Positions 1 through 27,055 of a stretch of DNA of 64,000 nucleotides are shown piece after piece. This DNA comes from Rhodothermales bacterium. GTDB lineage: Bacteria > Bacteroidota > Rhodothermia > Rhodothermales > VXPQ01. The notes beneath the pieces are model-generated. The model saw nothing but the letters and a program-made list of their open reading frames with translations. It was not told the origin of the DNA and made no database searches. Both the position numbers and the translations under genes were made by a program. Each line of letters starts with the position of its first letter. Position 1 is the stretch's first letter. The stretch spans positions 1-64,000 of the forward strand of contig JAJDWX010000042.1 of the NCBI GenBank assembly GCA_022825385.1, given 5' to 3'.

Positions 1-162
1 GTGCCAACTGCCAAAGCGCTTGGGCAATCCGCGCCACTTGCAGCCGTGCTCGGCAACGTACAGGATCGCGTTGAGCACCTGGAGGTTCGAGATGCTTACG
101 TTACCGCGCTGTTTGGGAAGCAGCGGTGCGATCCGTTCAAACTGGGCCTCGGTGAGTTCCAT
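1..162 (-). CDS. IS5-family transposase, N-terminal 54 residues (cut by window edge)
   Basis: Reading the minus strand from the ATG at 162 to the window edge gives 54 in-frame residues beginning MELTEAQFERIAPLLPKQRG and continuing through NLQVLNAILYVAEHGCKWRGLP. This is the characteristic start of IS5/IS427-type DDE transposases: a helical N-terminal domain before the DDE catalytic core, which lies outside the window. The enzyme would cut and rejoin DNA at the IS ends. The start sits 84 bp inside the predicted element end (245). The element lies in the DUF262 gene of the BREX operon, so it is a late arrival. Whether the transposase is intact cannot be judged here. Confidence 0.85.
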   Translation of the reverse strand, partial: MELTEAQFERIAPLLPKQRGNVSISNLQVLNAILYVAEHGCKWRGLPKRFGSWH

Positions 163-245
163 GTCTCTGAAATTTGCTTTAGATTGCAGCGTTCATAGAC
201 AACGAAACAAAGGAAATCATGTTCCCGAATAGTGTTCACAGACCC
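1..245 (-). mobile_element. IS5-family insertion sequence, one end only
   Basis: The boundary is placed at 245 because the DUF262 homology stops there. Read outwards-in, the element begins GGGTCTGTGAACACTATTCG, a G-rich end of the kind seen in IS5/IS427 elements, and it is followed inside by a transposase start. The adjoining host bases read CTAAG across the junction, which matches the short TNA-type targets favoured by this family. The other end and the target duplication are outside the window, so the exact boundary could be off by 2-4 bases. Confidence 0.7.
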
Positions 246-1064
246 TAAGATGGGCGGGTCGGCATAAGCGGCTGCTCGATCAACCGCTTCGTTCAGGGCA
301 TCCACATGCGCGTGGAGCGACTTGCCAGTCTCTTCCTCGACCAACGCCACCACAATATCGTAGGTGGAAAGGCGCACTGAACTGGTATTCATCTTGATAA
401 AAACGTCCAGGGCAACCTCCTTGGGCGTCTTGGCCGGCAAGGCCAGATACGGAAGGTTAAACTCCCGGACCTTGGTTCTCAGATCATTGATGACCTGGGA
501 AATGTCCTTGTATGCTTCGAATCGGTCTTCAACGTCGTCCGGAATAGCCTTTTCAGTCCACTCGTCGATCTCCTCACGGATATCCTCAGGGCGCAGAAGG
601 CGGATGGGGATAAATTCCCGTCGCGAGCATTCCTTGGGATCATCCACCCATATGGGGTATAAATTGTGATTTTTGGACCAGCGAGCTTGGCCATATACGT
701 AAGGCAGTTTCGCATCCTTATTGCTCGGATCCTCCTCGAATCCGATAAGGTAGGTTCGGTCGGGATATTTGTCATGTAGGCTGCGCCACAGGGCGGTGAG
801 CCTTTGCTGGCCGTCCAGGAGCTGCTCTGTAACTTTTTCGCCCGATGCGGGAGCGTCCACCATGGTCCGGCTCTTGAACTTCTCTTGATCGCCTACTTCA
901 AGTGTAAGCGTTGCGCCTGATGGCAACCCGCGCAGAACCGTAGTCAAAAGCCCTGAGACTTCGCTATGTCCCCAGGCCACGAAGCGCTGAAAGCGCGGCA
1001 GCGTAAGCTGTCGCGAGCGAATGCGGTTGAACCATTCCGGTAGAAATCGGTCATGTGCATGCAT
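96..1064 (-). pseudogene. DUF262 (GmrSD/BrxU-like) protein, 3' end replaced by IS5
   Basis: The N-terminal 273 residues (1064 down to 246) are a DUF262 domain. PRFQRFVAW near residue 25 matches the family's PxFQRxxxW signature, and LLDGQQRLTAL near residue 82 is the ParB/Srx-like DGQQR NTP-binding motif. The family includes GmrSD type IV enzymes that cut glucosylated or otherwise modified DNA, and BrxU of a BREX island. After residue 273 (ADPPIL) the frame runs 49 codons into the IS element and stops at 96, so the C-terminal DUF1524/HNH half expected in full-length proteins (about 600 residues) is missing. It is the last gene visible in the BREX operon, 17 bp after the methylase. Probably inactive as a nuclease. 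Confidence 0.8.
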
Positions 1065-1081
1065 AAGTCATGTCTCCTTTT

Positions 1082-3949: not shown

Positions 3950-5816
3950 TCTGATCCTCGCTTCGGTCGGTGTCATTAGACATGCGGCGTGTTTTTAACA
4001 GAGCACCCGCTTCTGTGATTACGTATCTCTGATTTGATGCCCGGGGGTTCTCCGGGTTGGTCATCGCCACAATCCTGGATTGAATCAGTGGATCAAGGTG
4101 GTGTTCCTTGAAATAACCCCTGTTGGTTACGCCAAGGGCCTCCAGAATCTCGGCCAAGCGACGGGGCACATCGCATAACGCTATAATTTTCCAATGAGTT
4201 TCGGAAAGTTCTGTCAGGACAGGAACTTGTCCAGTGGACAAGTCTTCCGTTTTACTTTCGACTTGTGCAGTGGACAAGTCGGGCTTCCCGGACTGAACTT
4301 GTGCAGTGACCAAGTCCTCATCTGGGGCATCAGGTTGATCAGTTTGTCGGAATCGGTCTGCCAGATGCTCTGCCAAGGCGTATTTTCTGCCGTCCTCAAT
4401 GGTTCTGAAGAGCGCTTTCGTAACCAGGGCATTGGCAATTTCCACGGCGTCCGGTCCGGCAAGGTTCGTTACGGCCTTGACCTGCGGAAGTGAGATTGCG
4501 CTCTCGCGGCAGGCAAAAGCAAACGCCCTTGCTTGCTCGTTGGTGAGTTGCACACCGAGGCTTGCCTGGAAAAGAATCTGCTGTTCCGACAGGAGTTCTT
4601 CTTTTGTGAGGGTGAGTTCGAAACACTTGCGCCCCTTGTTGTTGGCAATTGTCGGCGGAACGTGGCCCAACTGCTGCCAGTTGCGGAAGACATCTCGCAG
4701 ACCCCAGCCAGCGTTCTCACTCAGCCCTATGCGCCGGAAAGCAGTCACGATCCTGGGATTTCGGACCTCTTTCTCACCGGGTTCAAGCAGGTCTGTATCA
4801 GTAGCGAAGGCATCGCCAGGATTCCAAAAGACGGTCTGGTCGGAATAGTGGCGTATCTCCGGATTCCTGGAATGATCAGAATAATCCTGATGGATGATCA
4901 GGTTGACCATTGATTCACGAAAGGCGCGGTAGTCTGGAGGCGCATCATCTCTCTGCAAGGTTTTTGGGTCAATTCTGAATGGCCGCTCCGCGAATCTTTG
5001 GTACCAATCAATAAGTAATTGCCAGGACCGAATCAGATTTTCGTCGAGAACGAGACGGTCAATCCATCGCTCGCCGGCATCAGCCCTGTCGCGAGGCAGC
5101 GAGAATCTTTGGCAGTCCACTACCGGCCGTGGAAGGAGTTGCCGGAAAGCTGCATTGGTCCCAAACAGAAAAACCGCTGCGCGAGATGGAGACACTTGGT
5201 TGTGCTGTTCAACAAACATGCCCATTTCCTTGAGAAAATCCGTGTCGGATAGCGTTGCGTGAGATCGGCTCCCCTGCCTTCCCTCATAGACAGTCCGGTA
5301 CCATTTAATGCTTTCCAGATCGAATGCCGTATTAGGGTTCAAATCAACAGGCTGACTGTCGTAACGCTCGGTGGCAGCATCCAGCAGAAAGCGGTTTCGT
5401 TCATTTTCTGAGCAGCGCACATCGCACCCGCCACTGCGAACATATGCCCGACGGATGTCTCCGTTCAGGAAAACCGGTTTATCCGAACGATGGACCTCCG
5501 GCACATAGAAGATGAGCAAGTCTGATTCACCGTGTTTATGCAGTTCTTCACGAACATCCACGATGATGCTCAGCTTGTCGCGTTGCCGCAATGTAGTCAG
5601 GAAGTCATTCTGAACCTTATCGACATCAAGAACGCCGACGACTTCGAACTCCTGTCCGCTGTTCCGAACGCCAAAAACAAGGTGCCCCCCTTCCGTATTC
5701 GCGAAGGCAGAAACCGTTTCATAGGCGCTTCGGGGCACGTCACGTTGCGCCTCCTTGAACTCAACATCTCGCCATTCATGAGCGTTGAGCAGCTTTATCA
5801 ATTTATCTTGAGTCAT
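3930..5816 (-). CDS. AlbA_2 (Schlafen-like) / COG2865 ATP-binding protein inside the BREX operon
   Basis: The N-terminal 100 or so residues are an AlbA_2 domain (DVEFKEAQRDVP, then AFANTEGGHLVFGV). A COG2865-like middle follows with RAFRESMVNLIIHQDYS and a GHKL-like segment, VFWNPGDA. The C-terminus is winged-helix-like, with three 12-residue repeats carrying TAQV/TGQV between residues about 500 and 535. Family members are annotated as ATP-binding regulators or nucleic-acid-binding proteins and often sit in restriction and BREX loci. The gene begins 4 bp after brxC and overlaps the methylase, so it is a cotranscribed member of the system rather than a bystander. Its role in BREX is not known to me. 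Confidence 0.75.
   Translation of the reverse strand: MTQDKLIKLLNAHEWRDVEFKEAQRDVPRSAYETVSAFANTEGGHLVFGVRNSGQEFEVVGVLDVDKVQNDFLTTLRQRDKLSIIVDVREELHKHGESDLLIFYVPEVHRSDKPVFLNGDIRRAYVRSGGCDVRCSENERNRFLLDAATERYDSQPVDLNPNTAFDLESIKWYRTVYEGRQGSRSHATLSDTDFLKEMGMFVEQHNQVSPSRAAVFLFGTNAAFRQLLPRPVVDCQRFSLPRDRADAGERWIDRLVLDENLIRSWQLLIDWYQRFAERPFRIDPKTLQRDDAPPDYRAFRESMVNLIIHQDYSDHSRNPEIRHYSDQTVFWNPGDAFATDTDLLEPGEKEVRNPRIVTAFRRIGLSENAGWGLRDVFRNWQQLGHVPPTIANNKGRKCFELTLTKEELLSEQQILFQASLGVQLTNEQARAFAFACRESAISLPQVKAVTNLAGPDAVEIANALVTKALFRTIEDGRKYALAEHLADRFRQTDQPDAPDEDLVTAQVQSGKPDLSTAQVESKTEDLSTGQVPVLTELSETHWKIIALCDVPRRLAEILEALGVTNRGYFKEHHLDPLIQSRIVAMTNPENPRASNQRYVITEAGALLKTRRMSNDTDRSEDQNGKIQK
4225..4316 (-). 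repeat. Three 20-bp palindromic repeats at exact 36-bp spacing inside the AlbA_2 gene
   Basis: Copies lie at 4225-4244, 4261-4280 and 4297-4316. The first reads ACTTGTCC-AGT-GGACAAGT, so each unit is itself an inverted repeat with 8-bp arms. The 36-bp period keeps the reading frame and encodes a 12-residue repeat (DLSTAQV-like) in the linker before the C-terminal winged-helix region. Confidence 0.85.
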
Positions 5817-5820
5817 GATT

Positions 5821-8800
5821 TCATTCCAGCACGATGCGCACCTTGTCGGGTTCCTTGCCCTTGGTGAGTTCGTCCAGATATTCTTTGAATCGTTTCTTCA
5901 TCTCAGCCGGTGTTGCCGGTGAACCGCCGGAGAGCAGCGCCGCTCGCAGGTCCTCGGTCTTGACGGGCACCTTTTGAAGTCCGGAAAGCACTTCGCTTAG
6001 GGCATGGATGAAATCCTGGTCGAGATCGTCGGGCAGCTCCCGCTTCTTGATAAAGTCGTTCACCAGATTTTGGGGTTCGGGCCTAAGCAGGTCCAGGTTG
6101 CCCTTGGTGGTCGGATCTGCCAGGTTGGCGAGCAGCGTCTGTGTCCAGTTGGCCACCAGCTTGTCCAGTTCGTCATCCAAGCCGTCCAGCATCGTTCCGG
6201 CAGGTGCGGTGGGCGGTTCTGCCTCTGGTTTGTAGCTGCAGTGCGGACATACCGGTGAAGCCTCCATCTCTTGCTCAGTGAGGGCAGAGCAGCTTTTCAA
6301 TCCGGCCAGGCGGTTTTGAAAGTCAGACAGCTGCCGGCGGGGCATCAACTCGATCATGGAGAGTTTCTGCAGCACCTTGAGCCGTTCATCTCCTATGAGG
6401 CCGTTCTTGCGCTTGTTCTCGTGCACGCCCAACCGTGCCCTGGTGTGCATTCCCAAGTAGGTCTGCACATAGGCCTTTTTGAGGTCGATCAGTTTGCGCT
6501 GGGTTTGCTGACGGAAGGTGGCGGCCCTTCGTTTGTCCGGGGCACGAAGCTGGGCGAGCACTTCGTCCTGTGCGTCTTTCATCTTGCGGACCCACTCGTG
6601 TTCGGCGGATAACACTGCCTCGGCGGTGGAGAGGAAGGAGGCGGTGGAACCGAGATCAGCGACCAGTTCCTGGAGGGATTCGATCTCGGTCAGGGAATTG
6701 AGCCCGTCTCGATGGGCAGTAACCTCCTCGGCGTCATAGCGAAAGTTCTTGAGCTTTCCGGGCGAACTGTATGCTTGGAGCGATTCCAGGAAGATTTTGG
6801 TATCATCAAGCCGGGTACGCAGTTTTTGTACCTCTCTCTCGTCCAGGAGATGTCTGCCCCAGAAACTAAAGCCACTTTCCAGGCTCTGCCGCGAAAGCAC
6901 CAGTTTCTCTACCGTCTGGGAGATCGCTTTCTGGAGCTCTTGGACAGGCTCTTCTTTGCCCTGAGTGACAAGTTGGGCCATGCCAGGGGTAAGGCCAATT
7001 AGTTCGAACAAGGCCTTGAGCGCCGGAAGGTTCCAGTCCCTGGGCCGTTCGATATGCTTGAACTGCGTGAGTTCGTCAATGCCGGTTCCTGCCAGTTGCG
7101 ACAGGCCGGTAGCGTCGAATTTCTTGCCCGGAATGGCGAGGACCAGATCACCGGAGTAGACCAGAGCAGCCAGCACGACCGCAACCCATTCAGGTTCCAA
7201 CCGCTGCCTGTCCTTGTCCATGTATTCCACGCCCTTGTCATCCTGGATTAGTTCGGAGCGGTTGACGACTTGGCCGTGGCCTTTCTTCTCGAGTAGTCCG
7301 AGGATGTGTTTGGCATATTTCGATTTGTAGGAGTCGAGTCGTTCGCCGTCGAGCAGTTCCAAAGCGTCGAGTACCGCCGTAGCCTGCCTGGTTCGATTCT
7401 GGCCGGCGATGGCGCGCAAGGCATTCTGCGCGGCTTGGTCCCGGTTGGTCCCGGTGATTAGCACCGAGAAGAAGGGATATTCAGGCGCCTGATCCTGGAA
7501 GTGGGCTTCCAGGCAAATACCCGAGATCGTGTTCACCAGGTCGCGAAAGTTGATGCGTTCATGGGAGCCGATACCGGATAACTCCCGGATCGATTTGCCC
7601 TTGGCCCATGCAGTGAGCGACTTGGATCGGCCCTGATAGGCGACCTCAAAGGCGTCGCCCATGTGCTTTTGCAGCCATTGCACCAGGTTCTGCAGGAAAT
7701 TGGATGACTTGGACTCGTAAGTGGACTTAGCGTGTCCCGACGAGGTCGAAGCCAGGTCCAGGGCTGCCGCATAATTCCTGAGCGAGGTGCGAAATTCGTC
7801 ATCCAGATTCCTGAGTCGCAGGAACAGCTCGTCGGCGTTCTTTTCATCCTTGAAGGGCGGAGGATCGAAGGGCTGGATGAAGTAGAGGTAAAAATCCCGC
7901 GGCGGCACAGCGGTCGACCGTTCGTTAGGCGCGCCGAAAAACAGATACCCCTGACGCGCGGCCTTGCGCTCCAACCATTCCAGCTCGTGCTGCCAGATAT
8001 TGTAGCCGGTCACATAGGTTTGGTCCGTGCACTCCATGACCCGTTTCAGGGCTTCGTAGTAGTAGCGGTCCAGTGTCGAGGAGTCGAGGCTCTCGGCCCG
8101 CTTTTCGATCAGTGCGTCGAAGTCGTCGGTCTTCTTCAGGTCCAGGTAGAACTGGCGGTTGTCCGGGTTCGATGAAATGAACTGCCCGCTGACCGTCTTG
8201 TGGATTTCCCGAAGCACCGTTTCTACCTGGGAGAGCAGGTCGTCGGCCGGATCGCCGCCCAACTCCTCAATGCCCGGTTGATAGAGACAGAGACCGTCGC
8301 GTAGTTCCCCCGCAGTTGCGCCCAAGGTGGCGTGGATGTCGCCGGTGGTGAGCCGGTGAACCGACAGGGCATGAATGATCCGCAATGCCATGGGCTTGTA
8401 AGCCGGGCGCGTAAAGGCTTGCTGGATGCGGGACTCCAGCACCTGACTACAGTCGATTACCGCCTTGATATCCGGTATGGCACGGAATGAGGGGTTCTCC
8501 CGGAGATTGGTCCAGTAAGTGTCATAGGCAATGAGCCCGGGCCGGTCGTCCGGTATGTCCCGGTCGAGCATCTTCTTCATGGCCAGCGAGAGGATCTTCA
8601 ATACCTCGCGCTTCTCCACGACGGTCACCCCTTCGAAGGTGCCGATATAGTCGGGATGCACCGGAAAGAGGCGGACGAACTCGTCCATGCGCTCGTTCAT
8701 GTGGCCGTAGAACTTGCCAAAAGGCGTCAGGTACTCGCGTATCCTGGTCTGCTGTTCGCCGGTCTTCTTGAGCAGCCGTTCGGCCACTACGAACTTGACG

Positions 8801-9549
8801 TCTTTGCGGGCGATGAGGACCTGCTCGAAGCGATCCCGCACCCGGCGGATGCTGTCCGCCACAAAAGAAAAGCGTAGACTGTCGAAGATGGCTTCCTGGA
8901 CGCCGGCCATGAAGCGGAAGCGCAGGTCTTTGCAGACCTCGCCTATTTCACGGAGAAAATTCAGATCCAGGATGAGTTCCTGGTCCCTGCGCGTACGCAG
9001 ATAATCAAGCAGCTCGTCCACGACGAGAAGTAGTCCATGGTCTGGAAACTTCTGATGAAACGCGGCCATCATCTCTTCAAAGGACCGCTTGCTGTTGGAT
9101 ACCTGATCCGCAGAGGGGAAGCTGTAACTCGCGCCCATGTTATCGAGGTGCTCTTCCAACTCGGCCACGAGGATATCCCGAAGCGACATGGTGGTGGCGC
9201 CGATTTCGGTGCGAACTACCTTGAATTGACCGCCGATCTTTCCGGCGGCAGCCGCCACGTCTGGATTGTTCAAGCAGGGGACGAGGTCGGGATTTTCTGC
9301 AAGCGCGGAGATCACCGACATCAGGTGGGACTTACCAGTGCCGTAGTTGCCGACCACCAGAAGACCTTTGTTGTCGGTGGGTTGCTCGAACTGCAGTTGG
9401 GGAATGACAAGGCTCACCAGCCTTTCCGCCATCTCCTCTGAGATAACGTAGGTTTCGACAAGTTGCCGTGCCGCAGCTGCTTGGTCGGCGTCCCGCAGCT
9501 GGACCACGGATTCGATGGCTTCAAACTGGATCAGGTCCCCATATTTCAT
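5821..9549 (-). CDS. brxC: BREX P-loop ATPase BrxC (DUF6079 family)
   Basis: A 1242-residue protein. [11 protein letters not shown] near residue 70 is the Walker A motif, and [12 protein letters not shown] near residue 177 is a Walker B. The long C-terminal half is largely helical, with a CPHC cysteine pair near residue 1100. Length and layout fit the BrxC/PglY ATPase that is present in all BREX types and is needed for phage exclusion. The start is the ATG at 9549; the codon before it is an in-frame GTG. It lies 34 bp downstream of brxF and 4 bp upstream of the AlbA_2 gene in one minus-strand operon. Confidence 0.85.
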
Positions 9550-9583
9550 CACGTCTGCTGCCTTGCAATGGAATTTGTACTTT

Positions 9584-15481: not shown

Positions 15482-17620
15482 ATGAGGCTATTCCGCCTTT
15501 TCCTTGCGCTTGTCGTCGTGATTCCCGCGGCGACGGCGCGCGCCCAGCACGTTCCAGCCGATTCCGCGAAAACGGATTCGTCTCGCGTCGTCGAAATGTC
15601 GCCTATTGTCGTGACGGCGACGCGCTCCGAGAAGGCGCTTGAGGACGTGGCCCTGCCGACGACGGTCGTTCTGGCCGAGACCATGCGAATGCAGGGGGCC
15701 GTGCGGCTCAGCGACGTGCTTGTAGCGGTTCCTGGCCTGGCCCTGTTCGACGACCATGGGGCGGGGTTGCAGGTGCAGGGCTTTGCGCCGGAGTACACGC
15801 TGATTCTTCTGGATGGCGAACCTGTCATTGGACGGACGGCGGGCACCCTTGACCTGAACCGGTTGACCGTGCAGGGCCTGGACCGGATCGAAATCGTGCG
15901 CGGTCCGTCGTCGTCGCTCTATGGCAGCGAAGCGCTTGCGGGCGTGGTCAATCTTGTCACGGCGCCTGCGGCCGAAGGGTTTCGCGGCGCGCTTGGCGGT
16001 CGGTTTGGTTCGTTTGGCACGACAGACCTTACGGTCGAGGCAGAAGCCGGACGCGAGCAAGGGGGCGCGCGCCTCTTTTTCAACCGATATGCTTCAGAGG
16101 GCTACGATCTTACCCCTGCATCCTTCGGAGCCACCAGCCCGGCTTTCACCGACTGGACCGCCGATTGGCGCAGCCGCCTTGCCCTGTCGGATCGCGTTTT
16201 GCTCCGGCTTGGCGCCCGGGCGACCGTAGAGGATCAGGAAAGCGCCTTCGCGCTAAGGGCCGACGGCGTCGAAGTGCGCTACGACGACGAAGGGCGCCGC
16301 ATCGACTGGAGCCTGCACCCCGAAGCCCGGATTCGGCTCTCTGATCGTTTACGTCTCACGACCACGCTTTACGGAGCGCGTTACCAGACCGAAACCCGCT
16401 ACCGTCGCCAGCGCGACGGGGTCCTCACCTACGAGGACGATTTCGACCAGCGCTATCTGAAGGCTGAGGCCCAGTTCGACGCAATCTGGAGCAGACGCCA
16501 TTTCACGAGCCTGGGCGGCGGCGCGGCGCGGGAACGTCTTGGAGGCGCCCGCTACGGGCCGGACGCCGACGGCGAACGCCCGGCGGCGAACCAGGGTTAC
16601 GCCTTTGCCCAGCACGAATGGCTTCCGTTGCGCCTCCTGGAAGTGAGCGCAAGCGCCCGCTTCGACGCGCACTCCGACTACGCCGCGCGGCTAACCCCGA
16701 AAATCGCTCTGCTCGTTCGTCCGGCGGACAACCTGCGCTTTCGGGCGAGCGTGGGCAGCGGCTTCAAGGCGCCGGCCTTCCGGCAGTTTTACCTTGCGTT
16801 CGCCAACGCCGCGGCAGGGTACTCCGTCTTTGGCGCAACCCGGCTGCAGGAAGGGGTCGCCCGGCTACAGGCCGAGGGGGCGATAGACCAACTCTTTATC
16901 AATCCTGCTGCGCTTGAGGAGATTCGCGCCGAAAATTCGGTTGCGTTCAACATAGGCGGAAGCGTCGAGCCCTTCTCCCGGCTGGCTTTTTCGGTCAATG
17001 CCTTCCACAACAACGTGCGCGATCTCATCGAGACCCAGCCGATCGCGCGCAAGACGAACGGGCAGTTCGTTTTCGGCTATTTCAATCTTGCGCGGATCTA
17101 CACGCGGGGCGTCGAGGCGGATGCGACCATTCGGGCGGCCGCAGGCCGTCAGCATCGGCTCGATATTGCCTTGGGGTATCAATTGCTACAGGCGCGGGAC
17201 CGCGAGGTGGTCGAAGCGCTGGAAACAGGTACTGTGTTCGGACGCGATCCTTCCGGACGGGAATACCGCCTCGGCCTGGGCGACTATGGCGGGATGTTCG
17301 GGCGCTCGCCGCATACGGCGACGTTTCGCGCTGCGTACGCACATGCGCCGCTGGGTCTTACAGCAAGCGTTCGGGGCCGCTGGCGCAGCCGGTACGGCTA
17401 CCGCGATCTGGACGGCAACGCGCTGGCCAACCGCGACGACGAATTCGTAATGGCCTACGCCGTTTTCGACGCCACCGTTACCAAGTCCGTCCCGGCTCCG
17501 GGTTCGGCGGACGCCGAGGTCCAGCTTGGCGTGGATAACGCGCTCGACGTTACGCGCCCGGCGCTGGTGCCGTCGCTTCCCGGACGCCGGCTTTACGTTT
17601 CGCTCCGCCTTACGCTATGA
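15482..17620 (+). CDS. hmuR: TonB-dependent outer-membrane receptor, HmuR-like (haem uptake)
   Basis: A 712-residue protein with a signal peptide (MRLFRLFLALVVVIPAATARAQ). A TonB-box-like EMSPIVVTATRS lies near residue 38. The plug domain (about 48-150) includes GLALFDDHGAGLQVQGF and ends in IEIVRGPSSSLYGSEALAGVVNL, the usual end-of-plug sequence. A 22-strand-type barrel follows, ending in an aromatic-rich LYVSLRLTL. It imports a ligand across the outer membrane with TonB energy. The haem assignment comes from the next gene, an HmuY-like lipoprotein whose frame opens at the stop codon here, and from the operator at 15435. The usual hmuSTUV genes are not next to it. Confidence 0.8.
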   Translation: MRLFRLFLALVVVIPAATARAQHVPADSAKTDSSRVVEMSPIVVTATRSEKALEDVALPTTVVLAETMRMQGAVRLSDVLVAVPGLALFDDHGAGLQVQGFAPEYTLILLDGEPVIGRTAGTLDLNRLTVQGLDRIEIVRGPSSSLYGSEALAGVVNLVTAPAAEGFRGALGGRFGSFGTTDLTVEAEAGREQGGARLFFNRYASEGYDLTPASFGATSPAFTDWTADWRSRLALSDRVLLRLGARATVEDQESAFALRADGVEVRYDDEGRRIDWSLHPEARIRLSDRLRLTTTLYGARYQTETRYRRQRDGVLTYEDDFDQRYLKAEAQFDAIWSRRHFTSLGGGAARERLGGARYGPDADGERPAANQGYAFAQHEWLPLRLLEVSASARFDAHSDYAARLTPKIALLVRPADNLRFRASVGSGFKAPAFRQFYLAFANAAAGYSVFGATRLQEGVARLQAEGAIDQLFINPAALEEIRAENSVAFNIGGSVEPFSRLAFSVNAFHNNVRDLIETQPIARKTNGQFVFGYFNLARIYTRGVEADATIRAAAGRQHRLDIALGYQLLQARDREVVEALETGTVFGRDPSGREYRLGLGDYGGMFGRSPHTATFRAAYAHAPLGLTASVRGRWRSRYGYRDLDGNALANRDDEFVMAYAVFDATVTKSVPAPGSADAEVQLGVDNALDVTRPALVPSLPGRRLYVSLRLTL

Positions 17621-17658
17621 CGCCGCCAATCCTGAAACCCCAACCCGCCGTTCGCGCC

Positions 17659-18369
17659 ATGAAAACGCTTGTCGCTTGCTCCCTGTTTACCGGATTCGTC
17701 CTTTTGTTCGCCGGTTGCGACAGCGCCGATCCCGAACCGGAGCCGGTCCTGCTCAATGTGAAAATGGCCGAGAATATCCCGGCCGATCCGGTTTCGGGCC
17801 GCGACCCCGATACGGGGGCCTCGATCAGCAACAACCTTTTTACGCTCTACGACCTTGAAGCGGGTTCCATCCTGATTCCCTCGTCGCAGACGGACGCCGC
17901 CACCCGGCAGCGCGATTCCGCGTCGACTGCCTGGGATATCGGGTTCAGGGGCACGACGATTATTTTCAACGGGGGAACGAGCGGACCCGGCGAAGCGGCG
18001 GCGCAGCTGCTTGCGCAACCCTTTGCCGAAGTTACAGAAGCGCCCGAAGGGGGCTACGTCGCCGACGGCGAGAACGCATCCTGCCCGGAGGTCTCCACGC
18101 CCGTCGGTCCCGTTCCCGGCTCGCCCTACGCCATCTGTACGGGGTCGGACAACGGCTGGTACAATTATAATCCCGGGACCATGCTGCTCTTGCCTGTTCC
18201 GGGCCGCACGATCATGCTCAGGACGGCGAGCGGCAACTACGCGAAAATGCGGATACTGAGTTATTACCAGAACAATCCGAACCCGCCCGACGCATCGGTT
18301 CCGTCCCGGTATTATACGTTCGAGTATGTCCTCCAGCCCGACGGTTCCCGGGATCTGGCTTCGGAATAA
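17659..18369 (+). CDS. hmuY: HmuY-family haem-binding lipoprotein
   Basis: A 236-residue lipoprotein (lipobox LLFAGC, Cys about residue 18). WDIGFRGTTIIFNGGTSGPG near residue 98 is the conserved core of HmuY proteins, and the C-terminus has YYTFEYVLQPDG. HmuY of Porphyromonas takes haem from host proteins and passes it to HmuR; related Bacteroidota proteins do the same. The ATG at 17659 leaves a compact signal peptide; an in-frame ATG overlapping the receptor stop (17617) is also possible and would give tighter coupling. The haem-ligand residues cannot be confirmed by eye. Confidence 0.8.
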   Translation: MKTLVACSLFTGFVLLFAGCDSADPEPEPVLLNVKMAENIPADPVSGRDPDTGASISNNLFTLYDLEAGSILIPSSQTDAATRQRDSASTAWDIGFRGTTIIFNGGTSGPGEAAAQLLAQPFAEVTEAPEGGYVADGENASCPEVSTPVGPVPGSPYAICTGSDNGWYNYNPGTMLLLPVPGRTIMLRTASGNYAKMRILSYYQNNPNPPDASVPSRYYTFEYVLQPDGSRDLASE

Positions 18370-18639
18370 GGGAAGCGGTCGCGGCGGGCGCCAGACCCTG
18401 GGGTCCAGGCGGTCGCATGGCTTCGCAGGCGGGGTTGTTTCCTGCGATGTCCAAAAGGCCCCTGAAAGGAAATCTTCGCCTTTCCCGAACGCCGGCATGG
18501 CGATAGGGTTGCTTTATTCCATAATAATGTGTTATATTCAAGGTTGCGCTTTGCGTATTTTTTTCGATACCTGCCCGGACCGCCGGATATTCCGGCGCGT
18601 TCGGTTCTTTTTGCTAACCAACTTCAACGGATCTGCATT
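18370..18639. other. 270-bp intergenic region before the cupredoxin gene
   Basis: No coding signal. The right half turns AT-rich, with TTATATT at about 18531-18537 as a plausible -10 region for the cupredoxin gene. Nothing else stands out. Confidence 0.4.
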
Positions 18640-19194
18640 ATGAAGTCTTCCCGATTCCTGTGCCTGTTTTCCCTCCTGGCGCTCCTCTTTGCCGCGTGTG
18701 GCGGCGGCGCTTCTGACGGCGACGCTTCCTCCGACGCCGACCATGCCGCCACAGAAAGCGACATGGCCGCTGCCGAAAGCGATATGGCCGCTGACCACAG
18801 CGACATGGACGTTGTCGAAATCGTGCTCCGTCCGGACGGCGATAACTTAGCGTTCGACGAGAGCTCGACCTCGTTTACCGTTCAGGCCGGGGCCACGGTC
18901 AATCTGACCCTGGAAAATGTGGCGACCGCCGCCGTCATGTTGCACAACGTCGTCATACTGTCGTCGAATGAAGACGAGGTGGCCAACCGGGTAGGAATGG
19001 CGGCCATCGCTGCGGGCGAGGCAAGTGGATTCATTCCGGACGATGCGGCGATTCTGGCGGCCACGCCGCTTGCGCAGCCAGGCGAGACCGTGCAGGTTAC
19101 GTTCGAGGCGCCTTCGGAACCGGGGACCTATCGGTATATCTGCACCTATATCGGGCACCACACCGTGATGCAGGGTACGATGGTCGTAACCTGA
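18640..19194 (+). CDS. Azurin/plastocyanin-like cupredoxin lipoprotein
   Basis: A 184-residue lipoprotein (LLFAAC lipobox, Cys about 19). After the signal there is a low-complexity acidic linker with repeated ESDMAA/HSDM units (about 30-55), then one cupredoxin domain. The type 1 copper ligands are visible: His in MLHNVVIL (about 105), Cys in YRYICTYIGHH (about 171), His two or three residues later and Met in VMQGTM. The order H...C...H...M matches azurin. It probably shuttles electrons in the periplasm or on the outer membrane; its partner is not evident from the neighbours. Confidence 0.85.
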   Translation: MKSSRFLCLFSLLALLFAACGGGASDGDASSDADHAATESDMAAAESDMAADHSDMDVVEIVLRPDGDNLAFDESSTSFTVQAGATVNLTLENVATAAVMLHNVVILSSNEDEVANRVGMAAIAAGEASGFIPDDAAILAATPLAQPGETVQVTFEAPSEPGTYRYICTYIGHHTVMQGTMVVT

Positions 19195-19930: not shown

Positions 19931-19973
19931 GCGCTGCGCGTTGGGTGTGCGCGCGGCGCCTGCATCCGGCAGG

Positions 19974-20007
19974 TTACCCCACTGAGTACTTTTACTCAGT
20001 GGGGTAA
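19974..20007. terminator. Perfect 34-bp palindrome between convergent genes (also TGAGTA-N4-TACTCA class)
   Basis: The arms TTACCCCACTGAGTA and TACTCAGTGGGGTAA (15 bp, no mismatch) surround CTTT; TTTTGTTTT follows. It lies between two converging genes, so it can act as a bidirectional terminator. Its core TGAGTA-N4-TACTCA and 34-bp layout equal those of the sites in front of two DUF4143 genes at 28766 and 44740, which a plain terminator would not explain. Confidence 0.75.
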
Positions 20008-20036
20008 TTTTGTTTTATCGGCTTCCGGTTTGCTCC

Positions 20037-20639
20037 TCATTCGGTCAGCAGGATGCGGATTACGACGCCGCCCATCGTATCCCCCAGCTCGAAATCGTTC
20101 CTCGGACTGTCCTTGTGCGCATTGTGGCATGCGATGCATGCCGGCGAGACCGCTACGTCGGCGTATATGGCGGTGAAGTACTCTGCGTCGCCAAGCGATT
20201 CCCGGGCGTAGAACGCAGCGGACGGATTATTCGCCACACTGTCGAGTCCCACGATTTCTGCTTCGGTTCCTGGTTCGTTCTGCTTGTTGACGGGCCATTT
20301 GGAAATCAGCGCGTAGCTGAAGGCATCGGTTTTGTTCGCTACCATTTCTGCGCCCATGCGGAACATCTGGGCGGGCAGCGGCAAGGCTTTGTCGTCCTGC
20401 CAGTGTTCGCTGGCGAGAATGACTTCCTCCTGGTCCTGCAAGCGATGCACTACCTGACGCGCATAGACGGTTCGGTCAGATTCCAGGACGGCGTGCAAGG
20501 CGTCTGCCATGGCTTGGGGAGAAATACTCCCCGCTTCGCGTTGGTCTGACGTGGAGGGGCTACTGCAGCAGGCGAGCCCGATCGCGAAGATTCCCGCCGC
20601 GACCAGTCGGAGACAAGGGTTCGAGAGCAAGCGAGTCAT
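20037..20639 (-). CDS. DUF3365 (Tll0287-like) c-type haem lipoprotein
   Basis: A 200-residue protein with a lipoprotein signal (IFAIGLACC). The DUF3365 domain covers the rest: ALISKWPVNKQNEP in the middle and a single CxxCH haem site (CIACHNAH) near residue 168, ending with MGGVVIRILL. DUF3365/Tll0287 proteins are PAS-like domains with a covalently bound haem, thought to sense redox state or gases or to carry electrons. It is the third gene of a minus-strand operon, 29 bp after the multihaem cytochrome. It was assigned by motif, not by search. Confidence 0.8.
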   Translation of the reverse strand: MTRLLSNPCLRLVAAGIFAIGLACCSSPSTSDQREAGSISPQAMADALHAVLESDRTVYARQVVHRLQDQEEVILASEHWQDDKALPLPAQMFRMGAEMVANKTDAFSYALISKWPVNKQNEPGTEAEIVGLDSVANNPSAAFYARESLGDAEYFTAIYADVAVSPACIACHNAHKDSPRNDFELGDTMGGVVIRILLTE

Positions 20640-20668
20640 GATTTTTGCGCTGGAAAGGTTTTCTGAAG

Positions 20669-21973
20669 TTATTCTGTTCGGGAAAGCGCCATGTCTACGC
20701 TCTGGACATGGACTGACGGCATGCCGGAAAAATTGGTTCGAATCTTTTCCGGATCCGCCAGCGCGTCTATGGACAGCGCAAGCGAGTGGCAGGTCATGCA
20801 TACCTCGCGAATCATCTTCTCGTTGGGGCGGAGATTGGCGTTCTGATTGTGCTGCACTGCGATGCGGAGGTCTCCGGCGATGCGTCGTTCTTCTCTCGGC
20901 AAATGGCAGGACGCGCAACTTACCCCGCTTCCCGGCGCGCCTTCGCCGGACATTTCCCGTTCCCATAACCGGGCGTGGGGCGAATCGACATAGGCCGCCG
21001 AGTGTTCGTCGGCATGGCACGAAAGGCAGGCATTCACCGCCGCTTGCCGTACATTTACCGTATGTACGTCGTGGCAGGTTCCGCAATCCAGCGTTTCGTT
21101 CAGCGCTTCCGGGTGCATCGGGAGGCGCGCCATGGCGGGAGACATCGGATCGAGATCGACGGCCTGTCTCATGCCGTGCTTTCCTTGGGTAAAGCCCTGG
21201 TATTCCAGTTCGTGGCAGGCGCTGCACATCGCGTACGGCGGACGATCAGACCAGGCAGCGTCTGCCGCCGCGTGACAATCCGAACAGGCGACGCCCCCGG
21301 CGGCGTGCGCCGAATTTGCCCAGGCCGCAATCAGTTCGGGACGGGACGAGGCGGGCGGGCTGTCGGCGTCGGCGGCGCCGAGCGGCCCCGCATCGCGCAT
21401 TTCCCCGGAAATCCAGGCCTTTCTTTGCGGCCATGCGGCGGGGACGGTCGCCGGTTGCGCCTCGCCGTGTCGCAGGAGGAAGTCTTCGTAGAGCGCCCGG
21501 TTGTCGTGGTAATTGTGGCATCCCGCCGATCCGCAGGAATCGAACCCCATGCCTTCGTGCGTGGGCCGTTCCTCCGTTACGTCGCCGTGACACGAGCGGC
21601 AAAAGTCTTCGGGAAGCGTCACGCCCATGGCTCCGGTGATTTCCGGGCGATGTTCTACATGGCAGGCGATGCATTGCCGCGCGTCGAGGCGGGCAAGGTC
21701 TTCCGCATAGCGAGGATCGTTGAATTTCTCTGGGCCGTGCGAATCTTCGGCGGCCTGAAGGCCGGCCTGGTGGCAGGCAAGGCAGGCATCCTGTCGTATG
21801 CCCTGGAACGGGGCGTGACACGCGTCGCAGGCGCGTTCGATCTGATAATGCCCGCTTGTCGTTTCGCCGGGCAGAAACAGGCGACGGTCTCTTCCGAAGA
21901 AATGAACCACGAGATAGAGCCCGGCGGCTACCGTGGCCACGGTCCAGACGAAAGCGAGGCGTTTGCGGCGCAT
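20669..21973 (-). CDS. Membrane-anchored multihaem cytochrome c (11 haem sites)
   Basis: A 434-residue protein. One N-terminal transmembrane segment (FVWTVATVAAGLYLVVHFF) anchors it with the haem domain outside the cytoplasm. I count ten CxxCH sites (CDACH, CLACH, CIACH, CRSCH, CSDCH, CSACH, CGTCH, CLSCH, CASCH, CMTCH) and one CxxxCH-type site (CGSAGCH). Such proteins move electrons across the periplasm or reduce nitrogen, sulphur or metal compounds. The ATG at 21973 directly follows the TGA of the flavoprotein-diheme-b gene, so the two are coupled and it is the likely electron acceptor. It has no clear catalytic signature (no CxxCK). Confidence 0.85.
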   Translation of the reverse strand: MRRKRLAFVWTVATVAAGLYLVVHFFGRDRRLFLPGETTSGHYQIERACDACHAPFQGIRQDACLACHQAGLQAAEDSHGPEKFNDPRYAEDLARLDARQCIACHVEHRPEITGAMGVTLPEDFCRSCHGDVTEERPTHEGMGFDSCGSAGCHNYHDNRALYEDFLLRHGEAQPATVPAAWPQRKAWISGEMRDAGPLGAADADSPPASSRPELIAAWANSAHAAGGVACSDCHAAADAAWSDRPPYAMCSACHELEYQGFTQGKHGMRQAVDLDPMSPAMARLPMHPEALNETLDCGTCHDVHTVNVRQAAVNACLSCHADEHSAAYVDSPHARLWEREMSGEGAPGSGVSCASCHLPREERRIAGDLRIAVQHNQNANLRPNEKMIREVCMTCHSLALSIDALADPEKIRTNFSGMPSVHVQSVDMALSRTE

Positions 21974-21974
21974 G

Positions 21975-23936
21975 TCAGAAATACCAGGCGGCAAGGATAT
22001 GAAAAAAGATCAGGATGGGCAATGGCCAGATAGAGAGGACATGAAGCCAAAACCCCAGTCGGGTGCGTTGCGATCCCATGCCCGCCGCCGCGGCTCCGCC
22101 GAATGCGCTGGCGGCCAGAAAAGAAATCGTCAGCATCCGGTTCCATCCGGATCCGGTGTGCAGGCCCGTGTGGGCGACGAGCGCGATCAACGCCAGTACG
22201 CCGACGGCGCCGTGCCCGACGCGCCACCATGCGATGTTTCCCCATCGGACGCGTTTCCATCGCTTGCGCAAGGAAAACCCTGCCGAAATCAGCGCACAGC
22301 CCAATAGTATAAACCCGGTGCCCCATCGCCACCCGCTGTCCCGGCGCAGGGTATCCCATATTCCCTGGTCGAGTACGCTGTCGGCGAGCGGGATGGGCGG
22401 GCCGAACGCGATCATGAGGGTCAGGGCGACGGCGATCACCGCCGTAACGAGCAGTCCGGCGCGTTTCTGGTCTTCGGCGGGGGCCGGCGCGCTTCCGGTC
22501 AGTTCTGCAAGAAGCGGCTTGCAGGAACCGCAAACCGTCGAAGCCCCCGTGTGTTCGGCAAGGGCTTCCACGGATGCGCAGCCCTGCGCAATGGCTTTGT
22601 CCAGCGCGCCGCGCGTAATTTCCATACAGTTGCAGACGATGGCGGACGAGGGCCATTCGTTCGGCGGCGCATGCGCGGAACGGCGAGAAAGCGCACCCCT
22701 TCTGCGGAACCTGTTCAGCTGTCTGCGCCGGATGCGCTTGCGCTTTCGGATGATATCCTGGACGAACCCTCGTTCCGCCCAGGCATCGACGGAAGAGGCG
22801 GCGACGACGCGGTTTCGCCATACGGTAATTTGCCGATACGCGCCGCACTCGTTCCAGCGGATTCGTTTTCCAGGTTGGTCCTGATCGCCCATCGCCCAGA
22901 CGTCGGCATCCATGAGCCTCAGCCGCATCGCGGGAGTATAGCCGGAAAATCGCTTTTCGCGGCCCGCCAGAATTTCGGCAAGGGTTTCGGCCATTCGGTA
23001 TCCCGGGGCAACCAGGCCGTACAGGGCGTCCCGATGCCGCGCGCACTCGCCTATGGCGTAAATAGACGGGTCGGTCGTGCGGAGCGTATCGTCCACGACG
23101 ACGCCCCCGAATACAGACGCCACCGCAAGCCCTGCGTCTTGCGCCAACTCGTCTCGCGGCTGGATTCCGGTAGCCATCACGATCATGTCGGCGATCAGGG
23201 GGGCGTCCAGCTGTTGCACGAAAAGGCGCAACCGGTCGCCCTCGGGTTCTATCCGCCGGGCCAGGACGGGGGCGATGGCGCGTATGCCCATCTTGCGGAT
23301 TTTATCGTTCAGTACGGCGGCCCCTGCTATGTCGAGGTGTCCGCACATGAGGTACGGCGCCGCTTCGAGTACGACGATTTCCGGGCCCAAGCGTCGAAGC
23401 GCGGCGGCTATTTCAAGTCCGAGCGGCCCGCCGCCGATCACGATCGCCTTGCGCGCCTGTTCCGCTCGCCGCCCGATGCGGCGCAGGTCGTCGATGGTGC
23501 GGTATACGAAAACGTTTTCGGCGTTCGCTCCTTCGATGGGCGGCACGAAAGGCGCAGAACCCGTGGCCAGGACAAGATGGTCATACCCGATTCGTTCGCC
23601 CCCTGCAAGCCGAACTGTCCGTCGCTCGCGATCTATGGAGGTTGCGGCGTTGCCGGCGACGATCCGAATGCCTGCGGCCTCTGCCCATCCGGGCAGTCCC
23701 AGCGCAAGGCGTTGCGCGTCCCGGTGCTCCAGCCATTCGGTAAGATGGACCCGGTCGTACGCCGGTCCGTTTTCTTCCCCGATAATGGTGACGTCGTAGC
23801 GTTTCAGGGCGTTTAGCGCCTGCATGCGCTCAATCAGTTTGTATGCGGTCATGCCGAATCCGACCACAACCAGCCGTCCGGCAAGACGAGCCGGTTCCAC
23901 GGTTTCCGGAGGGCTATGGGGTTTCGGCGTTTGCAT
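21975..23936 (-). CDS. NirB-like FAD/NAD(P)H reductase fused to [2Fe-2S] and diheme-b membrane domains
   Basis: A 653-residue fusion. Residues about 20-300 are a pyridine nucleotide-disulphide reductase (VVVGFGMTAY for FAD, VIGGGPLGLEIAAAL for NAD(P)H, YAIGECA), like the N-terminus of NirB. About 430-480 is a BFD-like [2Fe-2S] domain (CNC then CGSC). The last 190 residues have about five transmembrane helices; the third and fifth each hold two histidines 14 apart (GHG...AHT and LHV...FHI), the pattern of ferric-reductase-type enzymes that bind two haems b. The sirohaem domains of true NirB are absent. Predicted: NAD(P)H to FAD to 2Fe-2S to haem b to the multihaem cytochrome. Confidence 0.75.
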   Translation of the reverse strand: MQTPKPHSPPETVEPARLAGRLVVVGFGMTAYKLIERMQALNALKRYDVTIIGEENGPAYDRVHLTEWLEHRDAQRLALGLPGWAEAAGIRIVAGNAATSIDRERRTVRLAGGERIGYDHLVLATGSAPFVPPIEGANAENVFVYRTIDDLRRIGRRAEQARKAIVIGGGPLGLEIAAALRRLGPEIVVLEAAPYLMCGHLDIAGAAVLNDKIRKMGIRAIAPVLARRIEPEGDRLRLFVQQLDAPLIADMIVMATGIQPRDELAQDAGLAVASVFGGVVVDDTLRTTDPSIYAIGECARHRDALYGLVAPGYRMAETLAEILAGREKRFSGYTPAMRLRLMDADVWAMGDQDQPGKRIRWNECGAYRQITVWRNRVVAASSVDAWAERGFVQDIIRKRKRIRRRQLNRFRRRGALSRRSAHAPPNEWPSSAIVCNCMEITRGALDKAIAQGCASVEALAEHTGASTVCGSCKPLLAELTGSAPAPAEDQKRAGLLVTAVIAVALTLMIAFGPPIPLADSVLDQGIWDTLRRDSGWRWGTGFILLGCALISAGFSLRKRWKRVRWGNIAWWRVGHGAVGVLALIALVAHTGLHTGSGWNRMLTISFLAASAFGGAAAAGMGSQRTRLGFWLHVLSIWPLPILIFFHILAAWYF

Positions 23937-24032
23937 GCAATGTTTCCCGGGGTGCGAATCGCCTATCCGTGTCTCTTTACCAGATAGAATAGACGCCGCT
24001 TTTCTGCTCAAGCCTCTGTGTTTTTACGCATT

Positions 24033-24077
24033 GCGCCAAATCGCGCCATAAACGCCTGTTGCTTGCCCTTGAGCGTC
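24033..24077. repeat. Left copy of a direct repeat flanking the Calx-beta gene
   Basis: GCGCCAAATCGCGCCATAA followed by ACGCCTGTTGCTTGCC and TTGAGCGTC matches 27091-27146 with two mismatches and an 11-base gap. In the right copy this sequence is the end of the AlbA_2 gene at 27.1 kb; here the matching codons (TLKGKQ on the minus strand) have no gene attached and the stop is changed. Confidence 0.8.
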
Positions 24078-24142: not shown

Positions 24143-27055
24143 ATGCGCGTACGGCCTGTTGTTTTTCGATATCTGATCCTGGCGCCGCTTTCTTGGTGGC
24201 TGCTTGCGGGACTTTCTTTGCGGACTGCTGCGCAAGACGTGGTGGTCACGGTAACGCTTTCTACCCCGGATACGGAGGCGGACGAGGGCGATGCAAACAA
24301 CGCGGCGGAGATCGTGTTGACGCTGGACAAGCCCCTGCAATTCCTTGAGCAGCTTGGCGTACCCTTGAGGTTTTCTGGCGGAACGCTGGGCGTCGATTTC
24401 ACATTGACGGCATTGCCGGCCGATCAAGTGACTTACGGGAATAATCTTGTGAAATTCTTTTCTCCGTCTTTTCCCGACCAGAGCCCTGACAGCGGCATGA
24501 AGATCACGTTGCGCCTGGTAGCCATACAGGACAACGATGCGAGAGACGACACTGTGACAGTATCGATCCCGACTACTCTTACCGATGGAGTAACGCCAGG
24601 GTTACAGCCGAATCAACGCTTACTGAATCGCGGCTTGCCCAGCGGAGTGCGCACAGGTAACGGACAAATTATTCTACTTGACGACGATAAGCCAGCAGCG
24701 AGTTTTGCAGCGGCGTCGCGGAGTGCAGGAGAGGGAGCAGGTACGTGGAATGCGACGGTTAATATCTCTCCGGCTCTGCAGGCGGCCACTACGCTCAATT
24801 ACTCGGTGGGGGGTACGGCGACGCGGGGCACGGACTATGGGGAGTTGTCGGGTTCGGTTCAGGCGTCGGCGGGCGCGACGAGCGTGGACATACCTGTGTC
24901 GATCACGGACGACAGCGTGATAGAAAGCGACGAAACCGTTGTTTTGACACTGACCTCTGGCGCGGGCTACAAGTTGGGCTCGCCGAAAACGCACACGCTT
25001 ATCATAAAGGACAACGATGTTGCGCCCCCTGCTGTGTCGGTTGCCCGCTTCGCGGCGGCCTCGTCGAGCGCTTCGGAGGGCGCGGGTTCGCACGCCGTGC
25101 GGGTTACGCTCTCCCCGGTTCCGCAGACGGCCACTACGCTCAAGTACTCGGTGGGCGGTACGGCGACGCGGGGCACGGACTATGCGGCGTTGTCGGATTC
25201 GGTTCAGGCGTTGGCGGGCGCGACGAGCGTGGACATTTCTGTGTCGATCATCGACGACAGTGTGATAGAAAACGACGAAACCGTTGTTTTGACCCTGACC
25301 TCTGGCGCGGGCTACAAGCTGGGGTCGCCGAAAACGCACACGTTTACCATAGAGGACGACGATGACACGTCTCCTCCTCCGCCTCCGCCGCCCCCTGGTG
25401 TGTCGCTTGCCCGCTTCGCGGCGTCCTCGTCGAGCGCTTCGGAGGGCGCGGGTTCGCACGCCGTGCGGATTACCCTCTCTCCGGCTCCGCAGACGGCCAC
25501 TACGCTCAACTATTCGGTGGGCGGTACGGCCACGCGGGGCGCGGACTATGCGGCGTTGTCGGATTCTGTTCAGGCGCCGGCGGGCGCGACAAGCGTGGTC
25601 ATACCTGTGTCGATCATCGACGACAGCGTGATAGAAAGCGACGAAACCGTTGTTTTGACCCTGACCTCTGGCGCGGGCTACGAGTTGGGATCGCCAAACG
25701 AGCATACGCTTACCATAGAGGATGACGATGACGCGTCTCCTCCTCCGCCCCCGCCTCCGCCGCCCCCTGTTATGTCGGTTGCCCGCTTCGCGGCGGCTTC
25801 GTCGAGCGCTTCGGAGCGCGCGGGTTCGCATAATGTGATGGTCAATCTTTTCCCGGTTCCGCAGACGGATATCAATCTCAACTACACGGTGGGCGGGTCG
25901 GCGACGGAGGGTACGGACTACACGCAGCTTTTGCGTTCGGTTTCTGTGCCGCCGGGCGTAGAGAGCGTGGACATTCCTGTGTCGATCACCGACGACGCGC
26001 TGGACGAGGGCGACGAAACGGTTGAGCTGACGATAATCGCCGGTGCGGACTACGAACTGGATTCGTCGAGCAAGCACACATTCATTATCGAGGAGGACGA
26101 CGGTTCCAAGACGACGGCGCGCTTCACGTCGGGTTCGGAGCGCGCGTTGGCTACTGCGGGCGTGCAGAACGCAACGGCCAACCTTTCCCCGGCTCTGCAG
26201 GCGGACATCCTCCTTTACTACAATTTGACCGGGATCACGGGGCACGTGTTGTCTCCGCTGCTGGCGGATGCTGTGTCTGTGCCGGCCGGCGCAACGAGCG
26301 CCACCATCCCGGTTACCATTACCAACGACATGCTGGACGAGGGGTACGACACCGTGTCGCTAACGCTGGCCCTCGGCGGAGGGGAATACAGGCTGGGTTT
26401 GCCGCACGAGTACCTGTTCGTCATTCAGGATCCCGCCGGGCCCGCCGTGAGTGTTTGGGGCGGCGCGCCAGTCACCGAGGGCGAGCCTGCTTTGTTCATG
26501 TTTACGGCGCCATCTGCGTTGGCTTCGAGTTTGCCGTTGAACGTGACATTTACCCAGACCGGCGACTTCGGCGTGCAAACCGGTTCGTTGGCGTTGATGG
26601 ATATCGACCTGAATGTCGCCTTCGCTGTCAGGACAGTGGACGACAATATAATCGAACCAAACGGATCCGTCCGCCTCACGCTGAACGCAGGCGAGGGCTA
26701 TATGGTAGGCGCCCTCGCGTCAGCCGAGGTGATTATCATAGACAACGACTTGGGGGCGACGTCGATCGAGTCCGCAGACCAGGAAGTCCCTGTCGCCTTG
26801 ACGCTGGAGCAGAATTATCCGAACCCGTTCAATTCGTCCACGATGATCGCGTTTTCGCTCCCGAGGTCGCAGCGCGTTGCATTGTCGGTCTACGACATGC
26901 TGGGGAAAGAGGTGAGCGTATTGATGGACGGGGTGCGGCCGGCGGCCCATTACAATATTGCGTTCGACGCTTCGGGCCTTGCCAGCGGTACGTATCTGTA
27001 CGTTCTTCAGACGGAGGAGCAGATGGTCGCCAGGACCATGGCGCTGCTGAAGTAA
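24143..27055 (+). CDS. Large exported Calx-beta repeat protein with T9SS type A sorting tail
   Basis: A 970-residue protein with a signal peptide (LAPLSWWLLAGLSL). About seven Calx-beta-like domains of 100-120 residues follow, recognisable by LNYSVGGTATRGTDY, VPVSITDDSVIESDETV-like strands and closing acidic IEDDDD calcium-type loops. Domains 2-5 are nearly identical, and two are joined by proline tracts (about residues 411-420 and 532-543). The last 90 residues, with EQNYPNPFN, MLGKEV and GTYLYVL, are the type IX secretion sorting domain, so the protein should be attached to the cell surface or released. Calx-beta arrays bind calcium and act in adhesion. A TATAAT ends 7 bases before the start codon, so a leaderless mRNA or an upstream promoter are both possible. 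Confidence 0.85.
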   Translation: MRVRPVVFRYLILAPLSWWLLAGLSLRTAAQDVVVTVTLSTPDTEADEGDANNAAEIVLTLDKPLQFLEQLGVPLRFSGGTLGVDFTLTALPADQVTYGNNLVKFFSPSFPDQSPDSGMKITLRLVAIQDNDARDDTVTVSIPTTLTDGVTPGLQPNQRLLNRGLPSGVRTGNGQIILLDDDKPAASFAAASRSAGEGAGTWNATVNISPALQAATTLNYSVGGTATRGTDYGELSGSVQASAGATSVDIPVSITDDSVIESDETVVLTLTSGAGYKLGSPKTHTLIIKDNDVAPPAVSVARFAAASSSASEGAGSHAVRVTLSPVPQTATTLKYSVGGTATRGTDYAALSDSVQALAGATSVDISVSIIDDSVIENDETVVLTLTSGAGYKLGSPKTHTFTIEDDDDTSPPPPPPPPGVSLARFAASSSSASEGAGSHAVRITLSPAPQTATTLNYSVGGTATRGADYAALSDSVQAPAGATSVVIPVSIIDDSVIESDETVVLTLTSGAGYELGSPNEHTLTIEDDDDASPPPPPPPPPPVMSVARFAAASSSASERAGSHNVMVNLFPVPQTDINLNYTVGGSATEGTDYTQLLRSVSVPPGVESVDIPVSITDDALDEGDETVELTIIAGADYELDSSSKHTFIIEEDDGSKTTARFTSGSERALATAGVQNATANLSPALQADILLYYNLTGITGHVLSPLLADAVSVPAGATSATIPVTITNDMLDEGYDTVSLTLALGGGEYRLGLPHEYLFVIQDPAGPAVSVWGGAPVTEGEPALFMFTAPSALASSLPLNVTFTQTGDFGVQTGSLALMDIDLNVAFAVRTVDDNIIEPNGSVRLTLNAGEGYMVGALASAEVIIIDNDLGATSIESADQEVPVALTLEQNYPNPFNSSTMIAFSLPRSQRVALSVYDMLGKEVSVLMDGVRPAAHYNIAFDASGLASGTYLYVLQTEEQMVARTMALLK
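24690..26105 (+). repeat. Four tandem ~350-bp coding repeats (Calx-beta domains 2-5)
   Basis: Units start near 24693, 25021, 25372 and 25741. Long stretches are identical at the DNA level (for example around the codons for VVLTLTSGAGY at 24940, 25290 and 25650), which points to recent duplication or gene conversion. The fourth unit is more diverged. The CCTCCG-rich proline linkers differ in length between units. Confidence 0.85.

Follow-up and report, generated by a model that had tools for sequence, protein, structure and literature searches.

Quinols are usually taken to be the electron source of periplasmic multihaem cytochromes. Among the closest described systems, the CbcL, MtrH and MtoC proteins, which mostly have six membrane segments, are proposed to be quinone linked (PMC6295460), and NirB carries an N-terminal half made of an NADH/FAD domain and a BFD-type [2Fe-2S] domain. 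Here, we describe a three-gene cluster of an uncultured Rhodothermales bacterium (assembly GCA_022825385.1, contig JAJDWX010000042.1, positions 1 to 64,000; this 64,000-nucleotide stretch is hereafter the window) in which such an input half is fused to a diheme-b membrane domain, next to the genes of an 11-haem cytochrome and a DUF3365 lipoprotein. The cluster is probably an inner-membrane electron relay from NADH to the periplasm. Its features and those of its borders were as follows (lengths in amino acids [aa]).

21975..23936, minus strand: fusion gene, 653 aa (NirB-type FAD/NAD domain, BFD [2Fe-2S] domain and five-helix diheme-b membrane domain)
23037..23876, minus strand: FAD/NAD(P)H domain (Pyr_redox_2), residues 21-300 of the fusion, with GxGxx at residues 26 and 168
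22500..22640, minus strand: BFD-type [2Fe-2S] domain, residues 433-479 of the fusion (CNC...CGSC)
21978..22460, minus strand: membrane domain, residues 493-653 of the fusion, five hydrophobic helices
22170..22214, minus strand: H575 and H589 (H-x13-H), putative haem ligands, helix 3 of the fusion
21999..22043, minus strand: H632 and H646 (H-x13-H), putative haem ligands, helix 5 of the fusion
20669..21973, minus strand: 11-haem c-type cytochrome, 434 aa, c3/c7-like, with an N-terminal anchor (10 CXXCH and 1 CX4CH)
20037..20639, minus strand: stand-alone Tll0287/DUF3365 (sCache_heme) lipoprotein with one CXXCH
20061..24055, no strand assigned: accessory segment, approximate extent, in two of the six species of the genus
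19971..20010, plus strand: terminator-like hairpin of 18 pairs, between a plus-strand lipoprotein gene and the end of the cluster

The three genes lie head to tail in one direction on the minus strand (20037-23936). A sequence-only reading of this DNA had described them as one operon, encoding a fusion of a NirB-type half with a [2Fe-2S] and a diheme-b membrane domain, an 11-haem cytochrome whose start touches the stop codon of the fusion, and a DUF3365 haem protein. Domain matches, helices and histidine pairs bear out the fusion, the co-directional genes are found as a cluster, and the haem count holds, with CX4CH as one of the 11 motifs; the fusion and cytochrome genes do adjoin, but one base separates stop and start (TGA-C-ATG). 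Residues 21-300 of the fusion matched Pyr_redox_2 (8.7e-52) and residues 433-479 matched Fer2_BFD (6.9e-11). The NirB model TIGR02374 aligned over its positions 1-465 of 794 only, at 387.5 bits, under the cut-off of 578.35, and domain search found neither of the sirohaem/4Fe-4S domains (PF03460, PF01077), both of which a true NirB shows. The fusion is thus not a NirB, because a defining domain is missing, and the earlier statement that it is no nitrite reductase of that type stands. Against NirB-length Bacteroidota proteins, the input half had 34-40% identity over residues about 20-480. The acidic residue that follows beta strand 2 (VVLEAAP) suggests that NADH is favoured over NADPH.

Likeness to NirB is confined to its N-terminal half (NADH/FAD domain and BFD [2Fe-2S]), whereas the fusion lacks NIR_SIR_ferr and NIR_SIR, scores under the NirB cut-off and ends in a diheme-b membrane domain. 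The same input module is found in NasA-type nitrate reductases fused to NADH/FAD/BFD (L178, L177), but their output is an N-terminal molybdopterin domain rather than a membrane domain. CbcL, MtrH and MtoC share with the cluster the occurrence of membrane segments together with a multihaem c-type cytochrome (PMC6295460). Their c haems are fused to the membrane domain, whereas the window cytochrome is a separate gene product and the flavoprotein is fused instead; with c haems and membrane domain in different chains, the system is not of the CbcL/MtrH/MtoC kind.

The membrane domain (residues 493-653) has five hydrophobic helices, and the H-x13-H spacing occurs in it exactly twice (575/589 and 632/646), in agreement with the five helices and two histidine pairs spaced 14 apart that had been read from the sequence. 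The further description of these helices as ferric-reductase-like drew no support from family models: PF01794 matched neither the membrane part (E up to 1) nor the whole fusion, and Pfam recognised no family in the membrane part, with PF01794, PF01292, PF14358 and PF13301 all below cut-off. A tblastn search with the cytochrome as query found gene clusters on plasmids that encode, beside a c3-type cytochrome, a membrane protein bearing both H-x13-H pairs. A family alignment was made of 19 sequences (the window protein and 18 distant relatives from plasmid clusters and Bacteroidota genomes) and held only six invariant columns, namely, the four histidines, one glycine and one tryptophan; the histidines, on whose conservation the sequence-only reading had staked its case, are thus invariant in all 18 relatives. 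A family profile built without the window protein scored it at 17.9 bits (hmmsearch), compared with 5 bits or less for 200 shuffles of its sequence, and profile-profile comparison of family and window domain (hhalign, a single comparison) gave 90.5% probability and an E value of 1.3e-6, so that homology to this diheme-b family is likely but distant. The family had matches in 97 of 370 good-quality sampled Bacteroidota genomes, a count that takes in weak matches; it is widespread and apparently uncharacterised, and apparently has no good Pfam model. Basic residues predict that the N-terminal domains are cytoplasmic and that helices 3 and 5 both cross the membrane from the cytoplasmic to the periplasmic side, in parallel orientation; each b haem would be gripped by one histidine from each of these helices.

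The cytochrome has 22 cysteines, every one inside the 11 haem motifs, which is not chance; its single helix is at the N-terminus, and it resembles the cytochromes of other diheme-b loci. The third gene product matched PF11845 (3.2e-16), confirming the DUF3365 assignment, and has one CXXCH (CIACH), a signal peptide and a lipobox-like LACC. It aligns with a DUF3365 member from Flammeovirga. For stand-alone haem-Cache proteins (DUF3365/Tll0287), a redox role has been proposed over a sensory one (PMC12889525, preprint); the third gene product shares with these sCache_heme proteins its PF11845 domain, CXXCH motif and stand-alone form, as known here from sequence.

In other genomes, the diheme-b family adjoins c3-type multihaem cytochromes across the Bacteroidota and on proteobacterial plasmids. 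A multihaem cytochrome gene stood directly beside the b gene in 20 of 29 short relative loci, and in several of the remaining 9 such a gene appeared in a longer stretch. The flavoprotein that keeps company with this pair varied. It was an FNR protein with a plant-type [2Fe-2S] domain in Rhizorhabdus, Alteromonas and Flammeovirga (the Flammeovirga locus encodes its own DUF3365 protein as well), and the same gene order was seen in Acetobacter, although the gene there is annotated only as 2Fe-2S. A cluster with 20- and 48-haem cytochromes had a 4Fe-4S and TrxB-like flavoprotein, and clusters with 10-haem cytochromes had a Pyr_redox and FHA (and Fer2) protein; no flavoprotein was recognised beside the b/c pair where the diheme-b protein is of the 190- to 200-aa version. 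That unrelated NAD(P)H flavoproteins stand time and again beside one b/c pair is, of the comparative arguments, the strongest for a module that moves electrons between pyridine nucleotides and the haem chains of the periplasm.

The window cluster would work most like the triads of FNR-2Fe2S protein, diheme b and c3 cytochrome (Rhizorhabdus, Alteromonas, Acetobacter, Flammeovirga), with which it shares a homologous membrane domain and a c3-type cytochrome; the triads differ in that the genes are separate and the flavoprotein is FNR type with a plant-type [2Fe-2S] cluster, not NirB/BFD. The Bacteroidota clusters with Fer4/TrxB-like proteins likewise have a homologous diheme b and a flavoprotein beside a multihaem c cytochrome, but are unfused and have cytochromes of 20 to 61 haems, which are likely long-range conduits.

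Several of these loci have further features of their own. On the minus strand of locus L084 (1-8044), an extracellular electron transfer-type locus encodes, in order, diheme b, a 20-haem protein and a 1,583-aa frame with 61 CXXCH motifs. A conserved Bacteroidota cluster (L087, L092, L155, L156, L157 and L158) surrounds diheme b and a 10-haem cytochrome with genes for a c554-like multihaem protein, a cyclic nucleotide (cNMP)-binding and Fer4 protein, an FHA protein and a Pyr_redox and FHA (and Fer2) fusion, followed in some by a protein-kinase-like gene; it is apparently an electron-transfer complex linked to phospho-signalling. An Alteromonas plasmid [NiFe] hydrogenase operon (L049:3300-11914) holds FNR-2Fe2S, diheme-b (orf1) and c3 cytochrome (cyt) genes, which suggests a direct transmembrane route from H2 to NAD(P). 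The diheme-b and c3 genes of this operon are apparently the orf1 and cyt that were reported not to be needed for maximal hydrogenase activity in E. coli (PMC3102683).

The fusion was rare among the Bacteroidota genomes searched. All other strong full-length matches to the NADH/FAD/BFD region in 394 Bacteroidota genomes were frames of 836-864 or 1,172-1,225 aa, and of the examples tested, one was a NirB with sirohaem domains and two were proteins of the molybdopterin nitrate reductase type that carry this module. Within the genomes searched, this species and one sister species were the only two in which the module is joined to diheme b. Searches with the b domain (394 genomes of the phylum and 245 of the class) gave no other true diheme-b fusion; a 747-aa frame in genome G039 that appeared fused was rejected as read-through of a high-GC overlapping frame. 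A genome contig scan with the fusion protein alone recovered the sister species and one BFD match and nothing else, viral contigs gave no match, and literature searches on the fusion architecture found nothing. Sampling outside the Bacteroidota consisted of plasmid records and one exact-peptide scan, and the claim of rarity is confined to that phylum. The novelty lies in the use of a NirB-type input and in joining it to diheme b; the b/c kind of relay is itself widespread and apparently uncharacterised.

The sister species has kept all three genes with 93-96% protein identity (15 of 201 residues differ in the DUF3365 protein), and the ratio of nonsynonymous to synonymous substitution rates between the two species was 0.15-0.36 for the fusion and cytochrome genes; the locus is therefore a maintained one, not an artefact of assembly. 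The four remaining species of the genus (G001, G003, G004 and G005) lack it. In G003, the sequence corresponding to window position 20060 is joined to that of 27063 across just 37 bases, with both the cluster and a Calx-beta gene missing, and in the sister species window position 24055 runs on to 27061, so that the cluster is present without a Calx-beta gene at the site. Given this empty site and the sister species without the Calx-beta gene, the redox cluster is a discrete accessory segment.

In the relay that we consider probable, NADH would reduce the FAD of the cytoplasmic NirB-type domain, and electrons would pass to the BFD [2Fe-2S] cluster, to the b haem on the cytoplasmic side (probably H575/H632) and, within the same polypeptide, to the b haem on the periplasmic side (H589/H646). 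The C-terminus of the fusion would be periplasmic, and the anchored 11-haem cytochrome would take up electrons there and hand them to partners in the periplasm. Among proteins with genes nearby, the haem-Cache lipoprotein is the best candidate for such a partner. The choice of NADH over NADPH, the outward direction, the occupancy of the haem sites, the lack of a quinone step and the final acceptor are parts of this scheme that we infer. In its favour, the input half is elsewhere joined to reductase domains, sirohaem (NirB) or molybdopterin (Nas). Several points weigh on the other side. The membrane-domain homology is weak by sequence (the 17.9 bits above), AlphaFold2 models were too poor for use (predicted local distance difference test scores of 36 for the fusion from a 3-row alignment and 51 for the membrane domain from 2 rows), the cluster has no gene for a terminal acceptor, and relay function is, for every family member, deduced from sequence. 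For those diheme-b relatives that have no flavoprotein beside them, a link to quinones would be just as possible.

This last point leads to a different arrangement, in which the diheme-b domain trades electrons with the quinone pool and the protein would act as an NADH:quinone reductase or as a branched, CbcL-like enzyme passing electrons from NADH and quinol to the cytochrome. Quinone is the obvious partner in loci of the 190- to 200-aa type, where no flavoprotein was identified beside the b/c pair, and CbcL, MtrH and MtoC, which unite multihaem c cytochromes with membrane segments, are proposed to be quinol oxidases or quinone reductases (PMC6295460). Here, however, the b domain is covalently joined to an NADH-FAD-[2Fe-2S] donor and needs no quinone for its reduction, and we regard quinone exchange as unlikely. 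Flow might also run inward, with a periplasmic donor reducing the 11-haem cytochrome and the fusion turning NAD+ into NADH, much as H2-to-NAD+ flow is plausible for the related triad inside the Alteromonas hydrogenase operon. Such a donor would need a potential near -320 mV or below, yet the genes beside the window cluster include none for a hydrogenase or another low-potential donor enzyme, and modules of the NirB type are known to oxidise NADH, all of which makes this direction distinctly improbable.

A periplasmic ferric or haem reductase for iron or haem acquisition is less probable still. It is brought to mind by genes for a TonB receptor, an HmuY-like haem-binding protein and a cupredoxin at 15482-19194, the TonB receptor and HmuY-like genes being about 2 kb away, but these are encoded on the other strand and a strong terminator-like hairpin separates them from the cluster, and 11 haems would be excessive for an assimilatory reductase. 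The hairpin scan gave 6 sites compared with 5.0 expected by chance, with the 18-pair stem at 19971..20010 the longest by far. The TonB/HmuY genes are moreover retained in members of the genus without the redox cluster, for which reason haem uptake was rejected as the primary function of the cluster.

The sequence-only reading had taken the system for a wire from NAD(P)H to the outside of the cell. A path from NADH to the periplasm is plausible; extracellular electron delivery is not supported, as no outer-membrane conduit was found. The cluster contains no porin or outer-membrane cytochrome, and searches of the organism's own genome with PF14537 and PF09699, the only families searched, showed no large outer-membrane cytochrome. 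Their matches were the window cytochrome, a pentahaem protein whose cluster reads as alternative complex III-like by gene order and sizes, and 8-haem and 7-haem TPR proteins. The latter two are cytochromes fused to repeats (L115:7669-10074, TPR and HEAT; L122:388-2670, TPR).

Elsewhere in the window, a 970-aa Calx-beta repeat protein with a type IX secretion system (T9SS) sorting domain is encoded next to the redox cluster (24143-27055, plus strand). A defence-like island on the minus strand (96-9552) encodes a GmrSD N-terminal domain, a DNA methylase, a Schlafen/AlbA_2 protein with a Fic-like C-terminus and a full-length DUF6079 protein of 1,243 aa. Positions 28809-53074 are mobile or defence rich, with three AAA_14/DUF4143 ATPases, a Fic protein, a HipA-like kinase and an AbiEii-type AAA ATPase.

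We tentatively suggest that this single polypeptide carries electrons from NADH to a periplasmic cytochrome without quinones, as a third output of the NirB-type module after sirohaem and molybdopterin, and that it is one of several independently assembled complexes of an NAD(P)H flavoprotein, diheme b and multihaem c. Because the fusion physically ties the NADH oxidiser to the diheme-b domain, a direct route from NAD(P)H to the periplasm can be tested in a three-gene system. If this is correct, these complexes together would be an unrecognised class of transmembrane oxidoreductase.

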